A stretch of DNA of 64,000 bases from Pseudomonas sp. SG20056 (GTDB taxonomy: Bacteria; Pseudomonadota; Gammaproteobacteria; Pseudomonadales; Pseudomonadaceae). Below are positions 19,819-24,268 of the stretch, piece after piece. The notes under the pieces were generated by a model. The model searched no databases. It saw only the letters and a list, made by a program, of their open reading frames with translations, and had not been told where the DNA came from. The position numbers and the translations under genes were made by a program. Positions within the stretch are counted from its first letter, which is position 1. Each line of letters begins with the position of its first letter. The stretch spans positions 3,100,001 to 3,164,000 of the forward strand of contig NZ_CP134499.1 of NCBI RefSeq assembly GCF_031764535.1. The letters run 5' to 3'.

Positions 19819-21162
19819 CTAGGCGTGAGCCGCCAATACACGGCGCTCCCACGGGGTAATTTCGTCAAAGAAGCTGGTGAGCTCCAATGTCTTACTGGCA
19901 ATGTAGCCTTCGATGAACTCTTTGCCGAACAGTTCCAGTGCCAGCGTACTGCGTTTGAGACGTTCAATCGCGGCATGCATGGTACAGGGTAGCGCCAATT
20001 CGTCCGGCACTTCGAACTCACCCTGAATCGGCGCACTGGGCTGCAGCTTCTGCTCAATCCCATACAGACCCGCTGCAAGGCTCGCCGCCAACGCCAGATA
20101 AGGATTGGCATCGGCGCCCGGCAAGCGATTCTCCACCCGCCGCGCCACAGGCGCACTGGCGGGAATACGCAGACCGGCGGCGCGATTATCCTCCGACCAG
20201 CAGGCGTTGTTCGGCGAAGCATAAGGATGACAAAGGCGCTGATAGGAATTTACATGCGGGGCAAATAGCAGAGTGAAATCGGCCATGGCCGCCTGCTGTC
20301 CGGCGATAAAGTGGTAAAACGCCGGCGTTGCCTGGCCATCGGCCGCGCTGAAGATATTCCGCCCACTGCCCTGCTCCACCACGCTCTGATGAATATGCAT
20401 GGAGCTGCCCGGCGTATGCGCCAGCGGCTTGGCCATGCAAACCACAGTGAGCCCGTGCTTGAGCGCGACCTCCTTGAGCAGGTGTTTGAACAGAAAGGTC
20501 TGATCGGCCAGCAGCAGCGGATCGCCGTGCAACAGGTTGATCTCGAACTGGCTGACACCCATCTCGTGCATAAAGGTATCGCGCGGCAGACCCAGCGCCG
20601 CCATGCACTGATAGACCTCACGGAAGAACGGGCGCAAGCCATTGTTGGAGCTGACGCTGAAGGCCGAGCCGCCATCTTCACGCCGGCCATCGAGCCCCAG
20701 CGGCGGCTGAAACGGCTGCAGCGGATCGGCATTGCGGGAAAATACAAAAAACTCCAGCTCGGTCGCCACCACTGGCTGCCAGCCATGACTGGCATAACGC
20801 GCAATCACCTGTTTAAGCAGGCCGCGGGTCGACAAACCGGAGCTGCGCCCATCCAGTTCATCGGCATCACAGATGGCCAACGCACGCGGCGTTTCACTCC
20901 AAGGCAGCCGATGAATCTGCGTCGGCTCAGCATTCAATGCCAGGTCACCGTCATCGCTGCCGTAATAACACGGCGCTGGATAGCCACCCATGATGCATTG
21001 CAGTAAAACCCCGCGCGCCAACTGCAAGCGTCGCCCCTCCAGAAAACCCTCAGCCGTCATCACCTTGCCACGCGGCACGCCATTGAGATCGGGCGTCACA
21101 CATTCAACTTCATCAACACCACGCAATAGCTCAGCCAGGGCGGTGCGGTCGAGGGTACTCAT
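19819..21162 (-). CDS. Glutamine synthetase-family ligase, gamma-glutamylpolyamine synthetase-like
   Basis: A 447-residue cytosolic enzyme with the GS beta-grasp N-domain (DLNGVPRGKVM) and catalytic domain (ELEFFVF, HEMGVSQFEINL, PGSSMHIHQS, NSYQRLCHPYASPNNACWSEDNR, RVENRLPGADANPYLALAA). The pattern fits the PuuA/PauA group, which joins glutamate to putrescine or other polyamines at ATP cost to start their breakdown. The asparagine-free NSYxR loop and ENR ending differ from nitrogen-assimilation GlnA, as does the shorter length. Other members act on ethanolamine or isopropylamine, so the amine is not certain. No other polyamine genes lie adjacent. Confidence 0.85.
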   Translation of the reverse strand: MSTLDRTALAELLRGVDEVECVTPDLNGVPRGKVMTAEGFLEGRRLQLARGVLLQCIMGGYPAPCYYGSDDGDLALNAEPTQIHRLPWSETPRALAICDADELDGRSSGLSTRGLLKQVIARYASHGWQPVVATELEFFVFSRNADPLQPFQPPLGLDGRREDGGSAFSVSSNNGLRPFFREVYQCMAALGLPRDTFMHEMGVSQFEINLLHGDPLLLADQTFLFKHLLKEVALKHGLTVVCMAKPLAHTPGSSMHIHQSVVEQGSGRNIFSAADGQATPAFYHFIAGQQAAMADFTLLFAPHVNSYQRLCHPYASPNNACWSEDNRAAGLRIPASAPVARRVENRLPGADANPYLALAASLAAGLYGIEQKLQPSAPIQGEFEVPDELALPCTMHAAIERLKRSTLALELFGKEFIEGYIASKTLELTSFFDEITPWERRVLAAHA

Positions 21163-21506
21163 TTGCTGTTGTCCTTATTGATGCAAGAGGCCGTAGTCGA
21201 ACGGCGAAGCGTACAAAATACGCACCAGCCGTTCGATATTTCAAGCAAAGCCATGCCCACCACCTGAAGCGCAGGCTAGCAAACGCAATACATCGACAAA
21301 TTAGATATTAATGATCATGCACAATCGCTCCAAAAACCATCATTTAGACACTCAAAAAACAATATAACAACATGATAAATAAAACATTAACCCTACTATC
21401 GATGCCATCGATGATTACCATGCCCAGCCTGCACTTCTTCATCAAATTTTCATCAGTATGATTGGCTCTGTACTCACTTACACCCGCCCTTACGAGGAGC
21501 CTGAAC
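21163..21506. other. AT-rich intergenic region before the tandem-repeat gene
   Basis: A 344-base gene-free stretch. From about 21280 to 21460 it is much richer in A+T than the neighbouring genes and contains a direct repeat, ATCGATG-CC-ATCGATG, near 21399-21414. It should carry divergent promoters for the ligase and the repeat protein. No other gene is credible here. Confidence 0.55.
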
Positions 21507-22061
21507 ATGAAAAAGCAAATTCTTACCGCCGTGATCCTGAGCAGCCTGTCCATCAGCGCCTTTGCCCTGCCACAGAACAACCCGCAGCCACTGCTGGGTG
21601 AAATGCAGGACAGCAGCGTAAAGACCCTGATGGGTTTTGGTAGCAACCTGCAAACTGAAGGCGGCGCTGAGCGCACTGGTGCAAACCGCGTTGCCGAAGG
21701 TGGCGCTGATCGTTTGCAAGAGCGCCTGCGTGTAGCCGAAGACGGTGCCGACCGCACTGGCGCAAACCGTGTCGCTGAAGGTGGTGCTGATCGCCTGCAA
21801 GAGCGTCTGCGTGTAGCCGAAGACGGTGCCGACCGCACTGGTGCAAACCGTGTCGCTGAAGGTGGCGCTGATCGCCTGCAAGAGCGCCTGCGTGTAGCCG
21901 AAGACGGTGCCGACCGCACTGGTGCAAACCGTGTCGCTGAAGGTGGCGCTGATCGTTTGCAAGAGCGTCTGCGTGTAGCCGAAGACGGTGCCGACCGCAC
22001 TGGCGCAAACCGTGTCGCTGAAGGTGGCGCTGAACGTACACCCGGCCTGCGCTTTAGCTGA
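21507..22061 (+). CDS. Exported protein of tandem 27-residue repeats
   Basis: A 184-residue protein with a signal peptide (KKQILTAVILSSLSISAFA, about residues 1-20) followed by a short linker and a repeat array. The unit is GANRVAEGGADRLQ followed by ERLRVAEDGADRT: four full copies and one partial, each 27 residues (81 bp). Each unit is itself two related halves sharing RVAExGADR. ATG 21507 has GAGGAG upstream; earlier in-frame ATG/TTG starts would spoil the signal peptide. I recall similar RVAEGGADR-repeat proteins in Pseudomonas carrying the name phage infection protein, but no function is established. A terminator follows directly. It is expected in the periplasm or outside. Confidence 0.8.
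   Translation: MKKQILTAVILSSLSISAFALPQNNPQPLLGEMQDSSVKTLMGFGSNLQTEGGAERTGANRVAEGGADRLQERLRVAEDGADRTGANRVAEGGADRLQERLRVAEDGADRTGANRVAEGGADRLQERLRVAEDGADRTGANRVAEGGADRLQERLRVAEDGADRTGANRVAEGGAERTPGLRFS
21681..22040 (+). repeat. 81-bp tandem repeat array inside the exported repeat protein
   Basis: Unit starts at 21681, 21762, 21843, 21924 and 22005, always 81 bases apart. The four full copies encode identical residues; their few base differences (for example CGC/CGT, GTT/GTC, TTG/CTG) are all silent. The fifth copy diverges after about 27 bases. Confidence 0.95.
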
Positions 22062-22082: not shown

Positions 22083-22112
22083 AAAAAAGGTGCTCAATCG
22101 AGCACCTTTTTT
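22083..22112. terminator. Bidirectional rho-independent terminator
   Basis: AAAAAAGGTGCTC and GAGCACCTTTTTT form a 13-bp stem with an AATC loop, ending the repeat-protein transcript and the convergent yceH transcript. Confidence 0.92.
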
Positions 22113-22114
22113 GT

Positions 22115-22774
22115 TTATTGCGCAGGCGACTCCAACTGCGCCAAGCGCTCTTCCAGCGCCGCGATCCGCGCCTCCAGAGCTTCCAGGCGCTCATCCTGCT
22201 GACCGACCGCCGTCGCGCGCTGCGGCTCACTGGCTCTGGCCGCCAATGCAGCCTGCAAATCGGCCGGGTCACCCAGCACGTGCATATAACGGTCTTCACG
22301 CTGCCCCGACTGGCGTGGCAACAGGCAAGCCAGTTCGCGACTGATCAAACGTTCAAGGTGATGCTGCACCTGCTCGGCATCATCAAAATCATGCATGCGG
22401 CTGCTGCGGGTCAGCAGCTCGTTGATGGTCTGCGGGCCGCGCAGCAGAAGCAACCCCAGCAACACCACCTGCGCCGCCACCAACTCCAGCGCCTTGTCGG
22501 CGCGGTGCTCCCAGCGATCCGCCCGGCTGCCCATCACCAGGCGCGCCATTTCGCGCCCTTCCAGGCTACGCAGGGCCTGGCCGACCTGGCCAGCGGTAAG
22601 GTTGAGCACCGGTTCACGACTGGTTTTCTGATTGCAAGCCAGCACCAGTGCATTCAGCGTCAGGGGATAGGCTTCGGGGGTAGTCAGCTGCTTTTCGATC
22701 AGGCAACCCAGCACCCGCGCTTCAACGATCGTCAGGGTTTCAACCGCCATAGCGTTCGCATCATCGTTGGACAT
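22115..22774 (-). CDS. yceH: YceH family protein (DUF480)
   Basis: A 219-residue cytosolic protein with two winged-helix-like domains: [29 protein letters not shown] at the start and [21 protein letters not shown] in the middle, both diagnostic of DUF480/YceH. A C-terminal coiled coil ([23 protein letters not shown]) follows. The molecular role is not established. ATG 22774 has GAGG five bases upstream; a longer frame to 22861 lacks family resemblance. It is divergent from sstT and ends at the shared terminator. Confidence 0.9.
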
Positions 22775-23047
22775 AACAACCTCATGGCCGCGCAAAGGCC
22801 CTAGCCTAGCCCGCCTGACGACCGGTTGATAGGTATAACCGCCGCTGGGCGGGGCAGGCACTTCGGCGGCGCGTAAACGCGGATCACTGTGATAGAGTCG
22901 CGCGCTATTTTTCAGCGTGGCCTTGTTTCATCCCCCGCGAAAAGCCTCATAACGCGCACTGCAGCCATGCATCCAGCCCCGGCGCCCCGAGCCCGGCAGG
23001 CAATAAAAAGAGATCGCAGGCCTGCCCGCCAAGTAGAGATGCATGTC

Positions 23048-24268
23048 ATGACCACTGCCCAACACCCGCTTATCCAACTGCTCAACCGCACCAGCCTGGT
23101 GCTGCAAATTGCTATCGGCCTGGTGGCTGGTATAGCCCTGGCGCTGTTTCTGCCTGAAGCCGCGGCAAGCGTCAGCTTCCTCGGTACGGTGTTTGTCTCG
23201 GCGCTGAAGGCCGTGGCTCCGGTGCTGGTATTCGTACTGGTGGCGGCGTCGATTGCCAACCATCAGCACGGCCAGCAGACCCATATCAAACCGATTCTGC
23301 TGCTGTACCTGATCGGTACCTTCAGCGCCGCGCTGATTGCTGTAGCCGCCAGCTTTGCCTTCCCGTCCAGCCTGACCCTGGTGAGCAACAGCGCTGAACT
23401 GTCGCCACCCGGCGACATCAGCGAAGTGCTGAAAACCCTGCTGCTGAATGTGGTGGATAACCCGGTCAACGCCCTGCTCAAAGGCAACTTTATCGGCATC
23501 CTGGCCTGGGCCATTGCCCTGGGCTTTGCCTTCCGCCATGCCAGCCCAAGCAGCAAGCAAATGCTCGCAGACCTCTCCGGCGCAGTCACCAGCATCGTCA
23601 AGCTGGTGATTCGCCTGGCGCCACTGGGGGTTTTCGGCCTGGTTGCGGCCACCCTGGCCGAGTCGGGCATGTCGGCCCTGCTCGATTACCTGCACCTGCT
23701 GCTGGTACTGGTGGGCTGCATGCTGTTTGTCGCCCTGGTGACCAACCCGGCGATTGTCTACTTCAAGACCCGTCGCAACCCCTACCCACTGGTGCTGACC
23801 TGCCTGCGCGAAAGTGGCCTGACGGCGTTCTTTACCCGTAGCTCGGCGGCCAATATCCCGGTCAACCTGCAGCTCTGCCAGCGTCTGGGCCTGCATGAGG
23901 AAACCTACTCGGTGTCGATCCCACTGGGCGCGACCATCAACATGGCCGGCGCGGCGATCACCATCACCGTGCTGACCATGGCCGCCGTGCACACACTGGG
24001 CATCGCCGTCGACCTGCCGACAGCATTGCTGCTCAGCCTGCTCGCCTCGATCAGCGCCTGCGGCGCCTCGGGCGTGGCCGGTGGCTCGCTGCTGCTGATC
24101 CCGCTGGCGTGCAGCCTGTTCGGCATCCCCAATGATGTGGCCATGCAGGTGGTCGCCGTCGGCTTTATCATCGGCATCGTCCAGGACTCTGCGGAAACCG
24201 CGCTGAACTCCTCCACCGATGTGCTGTTCACCGCCGCCGCTTGCCAGGCTGAGCAACAACGCAGCTAA
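23048..24268 (+). CDS. sstT: Sodium:serine/threonine symporter SstT
   Basis: A 406-residue inner-membrane protein of the dicarboxylate/amino acid:cation symporter family that imports serine and threonine with sodium. It matches SstT throughout: [40 protein letters not shown] (the serine-rich re-entrant hairpin HP1), [14 protein letters not shown] and the C-terminal [24 protein letters not shown]. The length equals the E. coli protein. I chose the ATG at 23048, giving MTTAQHP; earlier in-frame codons add a non-conserved tail. It is single-gene and terminates at a strong hairpin. Confidence 0.96.

Follow-up and report, generated by a model that had tools for sequence, protein, structure and literature searches.

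Small tandem-repeat proteins of Pseudomonas with signal-peptide-like starts and a MexT nod-box-like site at their promoters

Positions 21,507–22,061 of the window, as we call the whole 64,000 bp stretch of the Pseudomonas sp. SG20056 genome that was analyzed, hold a forward-strand gene for a 184 amino acid protein built of tandem 27-residue repeats. It belongs to a multi-gene family, shared by Pseudomonas and closely related genera, whose members are small and probably exported repeat proteins, and a LysR-type site resembling the nod box of the regulator MexT recurs at a set place in the family's promoters. The explanation that we lean toward joins MexT control with a disordered repeat polymer in the periplasm, and as a whole it seems somewhat probable. 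Its regulatory half, that the gene is under MexT control, is quite likely on the sequence evidence given below; its other half, a periplasmic polyampholyte role, is a tentative proposal that could well be wrong.

The family is widespread in the genus. A tblastn search finds a match in 285 of 298 Pseudomonas genomes, at up to 12 places per genome, and a profile search of the 13 negative genomes finds the family in nine of them (weakly in one). SG20056 has three copies, the window gene and those at C1:1335769 and C1:1083702. From the 143 loci gathered, 129 were parsed (left unparsed were L098, L134, L135, L138, L139, L140, L142, L146, L148, L149, L152, L155, L157, and L161) and gave 117 distinct proteins, all of which enter the pN/pS, repeat period, and composition counts below. 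Removal of 14 proteins whose loci had been chosen by their promoter box left 103 for the box counts; a first box count had used 83 loci, 79 of them parsed (without L016, L089, L098, and L099). No account of a genus-wide repeat-protein family was found in the literature searched, which covers few subscription journals.

A Shine-Dalgarno sequence, GAGGAG (21,494–21,499), precedes the window gene. The original prediction spoke of a signal peptide, and the start of the protein (MKKQILTAVILSSLSISAFA, 21,507–21,566) indeed looks like one by eye, with KK, a hydrophobic run, and AFA-LPQ; a simple pattern of a basic start plus an AxA-type site fits 110 of the 117 family proteins. A linker of 29 residues follows (LPQNNPQPLLGE..., 21,567–21,653) that is kept in relatives with another array length or unit, and after it the array parses into a partial unit TEGGAERTGAN (21,654–21,686), four 27-residue units (21,687–21,767, 21,768–21,848, 21,849–21,929, and 21,930–22,010), and a partial unit with the C-terminus, RVAEGGAERTPGLRFS (22,011–22,058). 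The predicted AT-rich promoter region is present, with 38.3% G+C at 21,280–21,506 against 60.5% for the window. The predicted terminator fares less well: a terminator-like stem-loop with a T tail does lie at 22,083–22,112, between the repeat gene and the convergent DUF480/YceH gene (22,115–22,861, reverse strand), but it is weak when taken alone, as the shuffled region averages 1.8 such sites. The other neighbors are a glutamine-synthetase-like gene (19,819–21,162, reverse strand) and a dicarboxylate symporter gene (22,889–24,268, forward strand), and the repeat gene forms no obvious operon with any of the three.

The four full units all read RVAEGGADRLQERLRVAEDGADRTGAN and begin at residues 61, 88, 115, and 142. 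TRF reports the array with period 81, 4.7 copies, 93% matches, and a score of 642; the runner-up array in the window scores 63. As had been predicted, the units differ only synonymously: 8 of the 81 nucleotide positions vary, every change is silent, and all are C/T transitions. The chance that all eight would be silent is 2.6e-5 for random changes and 2.7e-4 if only transitions are allowed. The two half-repeats that were said to make up each unit are real but unequal, 14 amino acids (RVAEGGADRLQERL) and 13 amino acids (RVAEDGADRTGAN). Across the family the best repeat period is 13 amino acids in 60 of the 117 distinct proteins, 26 in 24, 27 in 18, 18 in five, and some other value in ten.

The array was also predicted to be recombining, with a comparison of copy number among related strains as the check, and this comparison bears the claim out: close relatives carry from one to four blocks at the same place. 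The series was drawn from loci with a DUF480/YceH signature downstream, called by a pattern; this signature lies near 23 proteins and is downstream in 19, the window included, while in four proteins of genus g12 (L166, L178, L183, and L189) it lies upstream and the locus may be another one. There is one LQERL-TGAN block in L092 (a 90 amino acid protein whose block begins TEGGADR and keeps 25 of the 27 residues), two in L081 and L136 (130 amino acids), three in L076 (157 amino acids), and four in the window protein (184 amino acids); L004 has two full blocks and one partial block. The first 49 residues of five close genes have 95–97% DNA identity over 147 nt. In L077 nearly identical ends enclose some nine 13-mers of TGAN or TGVN type, and L085, L010, and L016 carry other spacers in the array. 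Since these relatives differ in block number or unit between like ends, the array ends and the promoter are fixed while the middle is exchanged. Units differ by 5.8 nucleotides within genes versus 7.6 between genes (13 units from five genes), a modest within-gene homogenization among the closest relatives. The window units themselves contain three incompatible site pairs (all four combinations present), but one site, in codon 13, is part of every pair, and a single repeated mutation there would explain them as well as recombination would.

Strong protein-level selection on the array had been proposed, and this can be kept in a milder form. Comparison of adjacent units gives pN below pS in all 117 genes, and the pooled pN/pS is 0.35, an upper estimate in that array ends and out-of-phase units are included; relatives such as L136 do carry amino acid changes. 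A fixed copy number together with a sequence drifting across species had been named as what would speak against the prediction; copy number in fact varies, but unit sequence outside a core does change. The core R-V-A-E-x-G-x-[DE]-R is kept in the arrays, and the spacers differ between species (LQERL/TGAN, VHERQLERL, TYKPQMEH, and TPGF); in genus g9 (six loci) the units are about 19–20 amino acids long and of the RVADNGSERTIDRLHKQMDEA type. One might imagine that the array is a by-product, a repeat that slips in length and does little behind a signal peptide and a stress promoter. The one to four copies in close relatives would suit this, as would the repeatless L140 and L155 (described below), which keep promoter and N-terminus. 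It is nonetheless quite improbable, given that pN is below pS between units in every gene, that the changes among the window units are silent only, that the core persists in arrays whose other residues differ, and that most genomes of the genus have the family, often in several copies.

Absent from the original prediction was the LysR-type box ATCGATGCCATCGATGATTACCAT at 21,398–21,421 of the forward strand. It includes a palindrome, ATCGATG-C-CATCGAT (21,398–21,412), which has the ATC-N9-GAT, T-N11-A form of LysR sites. The box searched for was ATCR(N5)RTCGAT(N4)ACYAT, obtained by relaxing two positions, after the family promoters had been seen, of ATCA-N5-GTCGAT-N4-ACYAT, which we take to be the MexT nod box. 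The window site matches this relaxed box without a mismatch, as no other place in the 4.48 Mb genome does. Against the MexT consensus in print, ATYA(N7)YGAT(N4) (as quoted in PMC11432991), it has one mismatch in ATYA(N7)YGAT, the G at position 4. One-mismatch boxes occur at three places in the genome, among them that of the paralog, at 1336223; the box of the third copy has three mismatches. Another of the three, at G000:C1:2594011-2594034 (L039 1501–1524), lies 103–109 nt before a gene for a small exported-looking protein without repeats (MTMTSFSAIASLLAAS...), a possible MexT target. An identical 24-mer occurs five times in this genome (G000:C1:634638, 640187, 1147253, 1152802, and 2504085), twice in pairs spaced by 5549 bp, a pattern that tandemly repeated long elements, for instance rRNA operons, might explain.

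The geometry of the window promoter recurs throughout the family. A −10-like TATGAT (21,457–21,462) begins 59 nt after the start of the box; it is not among the promoters listed by a consensus promoter scan, and the transcription start predicted from it is about 21,469. With TAnnAT fixed at this distance the center of the box falls at about −64, which is the usual position of a LysR site. Among the 103 family proteins the box has no mismatch in 54, one in 21, two in 14, three in seven, and four to six in seven, that is, two or fewer in 89; when the upstream sequences are reversed, none has two or fewer and five of 103 have three. In those 89 genes the box lies 103–116 nt before the ATG, and in 81 of them TAnnAT follows its first nucleotide at exactly 59 nt; among upstream sequences thinned to representatives below 75% identity the count is 25 of 28. 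The upstream regions of distant paralogs share the box and then ACCAT or a similar word. The six loci of genus g9 have the relaxed box with two to four mismatches and, in four of the six, a site at about −150, though one that fits the printed consensus. An OmpR-type direct repeat, TTCATCA-AATT-TTCATCA (21,438–21,455), was considered as a second operator and set aside, being poorly kept in distant relatives (by eye); a CACTTCTT-like word at the same place is kept in them.

The reverse search asks what perfect boxes stand before. A scan of 398 genomes from the same taxonomic family finds them in 228, and the pattern read backwards gives eight matches in six genomes. Thirty of these places were taken as loci on the strength of the box alone; at 18 of them a repeat ORF (one with two or more core motifs, L146 included) starts 103–115 nt downstream. 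At three of the other 12 (L134, L140, and L155) a degenerate or repeatless homolog follows by eye; L140 and L155, with the box at 1501 on the reverse strand, encode 44 amino acids with a signal peptide and an ALPSR.PAPILGE start and no repeats, and in these two genes the promoter and N-terminus persist, but the entire array seems either to have dropped out or never to have been acquired. The box of L139 precedes a glutathione-dependent disulfide-bond oxidoreductase gene (1611–2453; NF008731, 522.5 versus a cut-off of 325 bits), those of L135 (1597–2595) and L152 precede LLM oxidoreductase genes (TIGR03558 for L135, by eye for L152), and those of L138 (1597–2196), L142, and L157 precede a lipoprotein-like gene (by eye), which in L138 adjoins a LysR-like gene (also by eye). 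The downstream genes of the remaining three loci (L148, L149, and L161) have no assignment. The L139, L135, and L138 genes are candidates for further members of the regulon, and the disulfide-bond oxidoreductase would fit the redox role that one cited paper assigns to MexT in its title. Perfect boxes are also found in four of six genomes of genus g5 (G301, G317, G340, and G358), which have neither a close MexT nor the family, so that MexT cannot be the sole user of this box.

SG20056 has a putative MexT ortholog, a 305 amino acid LysR protein that is 92% identical to a 96 amino acid MexT bait; the other LysR proteins of the genome reach 53%, 47%, and 43% over the bait. No NCBIfam model above its cut-off names the 305 amino acid protein among the best 25 of 29 matches. 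A divergent gene for a zinc-type quinone reductase (MexS-like) adjoins its gene on one side, and the gene that follows it reads by eye as mexE. The promoter of this mexE-like gene carries ATCATTCACGATGATAGTCACCTT, which fits ATYA(N7)YGAT(N4) and has three mismatches to the relaxed box. Co-occurrence of MexT (present at E<=1e-60) and the family was scored in 80 genomes, 67 from 18 other genera and 13 of the same genus that had been picked for lack of a tblastn match: 34 have both, 13 MexT only, one the family only, and 32 neither (Fisher 8.9e-11, a statistic that ignores relatedness). The lone family-only genome, G284, is 86% complete and its match is partial. In the six sampled genera without any MexT (g3, g5, g7, g13, g16, and g18; 23 genomes) the family is absent as well, and it is absent also from g10, g11, and g17, where MexT is patchy. 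Two counts speak against MexT control: 14 of the 103 family genes have at least three box mismatches, and 13 of the 47 genomes with MexT do not have the family.

Two MexT-dependent genes of P. aeruginosa invite comparison. PA2486, which is presumably PtrC, a protein reportedly linked (in the title of a paper) to type III secretion, has the MexT dependence that is predicted for the window gene. PA4881 is described as a tandem-repeat protein under MexT, and its likeness to the window gene is one of description. In PMC12607905, PA4881 shows the largest fall in Table 1 of the PAO1 mexT deletion (log2 −6.5), followed by mexEF-oprN, PA3229, PA1942, PA4623, PA1744, and PA2486 (log2 −4.5 for the last). 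PMC3557286 calls PA4881 a hypothetical tandem repeat protein under MexT and describes no extra H2O2 sensitivity of a PA4881 mutant in a disk test, which counts against a simple peroxide role; according to PMC3848899, PA4881 falls strongly in parS and parR mutants.

The box might instead be used mainly by another MexT-related LysR regulator, a MexT paralog or a protein of the PA2206 type, in which case the family would answer a different signal. Candidates are not lacking, as MexT paralogs of 52–70% identity exist in many genomes and SG20056 has its own more distant LysR proteins; the g5 boxes in genomes without MexT and the LysR-like neighbor of the box-bearing L138 gene would agree with such a regulator, and the PA4881 promoter is a binding target of the LysR protein PA2206 as well (PMC3557286). 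This alternative is possible but unlikely: of the 33 sampled genomes that have no close MexT, 32 do not have the family, the mexE-like promoter of SG20056 fits the printed MexT consensus, and PA4881 falls about 90-fold without MexT (PMC12607905).

The original prediction warned that a name such as phage infection protein would have no clear basis, and the searches agree. A collection of 50,697 phage records has no match at E 1e-5, the PADLOC models do not match the window protein, and PHROGs gives a single match, at E 0.01; a plasmid collection searched at E 1e-5 has one match, NZ_CP047266.1 72163–72624 (L212) of P. asturiensis, annotated "hypothetical protein". Nothing found points to the phage adsorption and biofilm roles for which deletion mutants had been suggested. 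A variable polymer of the surface, for biofilm or as a phage receptor, would in principle go with a variable repeat number and with export, but it is very improbable here, as Pfam gives the window protein no domain for anchoring, sorting, or the outer membrane above its cut-offs, the phage and defense searches offer no link, and the promoter resembles those of a redox-stress regulon.

We thus return to MexT control and a periplasmic polymer, the second of which draws on the nature of the protein itself. No Pfam family matches the window protein above the curated cut-offs (there are sub-threshold matches only), matches among 38 family members are scattered and of the composition type, and the family profile finds nothing below E 0.015 among solved structures. 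AlphaFold2, run with 38 sequences, gives a mean pLDDT of 46.9 and a pTM of 0.15; pLDDT is below 50 at residues 82–175, ten-residue means are 53 where the repeats begin and fall to 35 in mid-array, and the only helix drawn is a short one at residues 69–76. According to this model the protein is most likely disordered. Arginine makes up 13.0% of the full-length and 14.6% of the mature protein, while none of the window's 45 other long ORFs exceeds 12.4%; glycine makes up 15.2%, GRAVY is −0.92, and the mature protein has no cysteine or histidine. The arrays of the family, 13,799 residues in all, are 16.1% glycine, 14.9% arginine (2062 residues), 14.9% alanine, 9.8% glutamate, and 9.3% aspartate, with 3 cysteines, 2 tryptophans, 79 lysines, 92 histidines, and 50 methionines. 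The low share of lysine in the window protein is less telling: one other ORF in the window equals it (K/(K+R) 0.04) and several come close. A glycine-rich, charged, predicted disordered protein with a short repeated motif and a stress promoter recalls the hydrophilins and LEA-like stress proteins. Hydrophilins are defined by glycine above 6% and GRAVY below −1; only 11 of the 117 family proteins pass this rule and the window protein does not, so the label was dropped.

A second likeness is to PtrA (PA2808), also a small periplasmic protein of Pseudomonas. NF041599, the 46-position model of the PtrA N-terminal domain, matches the window protein at the repeat core, and among 38 aligned family members it reaches E<=0.01 with 29 (best 2.6e-26). 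The window protein scores 22.8 bits, below the 31-bit cut-off, and its own paralog at 1336030 passes with 37.6. This resemblance is why metal binding is kept as an alternative, in which the product would be a periplasmic metal-binding protein like PtrA whose acidic repeats bind copper, zinc, or calcium. PtrA is described as periplasmic and copper-binding and is listed under CopRS (PMC7922089), and MexS and MexEF-OprN of P. putida are involved in resistance to toxic ion chelators (PMC7697342). The window protein, in contrast, is an array below the cut-off without cysteine or histidine, and the family's arrays are very poor in the cysteines, histidines, and methionines counted above, all of which makes metal binding distinctly unlikely.

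The favored explanation, MexT control of a periplasmic polymer, runs as follows. The gene would be transcribed alone, from an activator-dependent promoter at which MexT binds the nod-box-like site centered about 64 nt before the start, and the stresses sensed by MexT (disulfide, electrophile, or envelope stress) would therefore induce it. The product, a polymer of Arg, Asp, Glu, Gly, and Ala without Cys, His, or Trp, would be exported to the periplasm and stay largely unfolded there; it is this predicted disorder, with the composition of the arrays, that leads us to propose a MexT-induced periplasmic polyampholyte. Selection would keep the short core, putatively the functional element, while copy number, free to vary, and the spacer residues turn over by recombination. 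As to biochemical role we can offer only a guess, and our conjecture is that, under stress sensed by MexT, the protein serves in the periplasm as a multivalent polymer for protection or binding that tolerates changes of length. A narrower form, which we regard as quite doubtful, makes the family a genus-wide electrophile-response polymer, purged of Cys, Lys, and His and enriched in Arg, that forms a sacrificial or shielding layer whose capacity would be set by repeat number and quickly changed by recombination. If that were true, the MexT regulon outside P. aeruginosa would be an envelope-polymer response first and an efflux response second.

The promoter box is the new point beyond the repeats themselves, which the original prediction had described. 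It suggests that such repeat proteins, of which a genome often has several copies, are a main target of this box across Pseudomonas and its relatives (18 of the 30 box loci), and the gene that falls most in the P. aeruginosa mexT deletion is itself an uncharacterized repeat protein. The locus also supplies a natural series of one, two, three, and four blocks between fixed ends in which the growth and uniformity of arrays can be studied. A family of unassigned role thus gains a likely regulator, a stress context, and natural length variants for functional tests.
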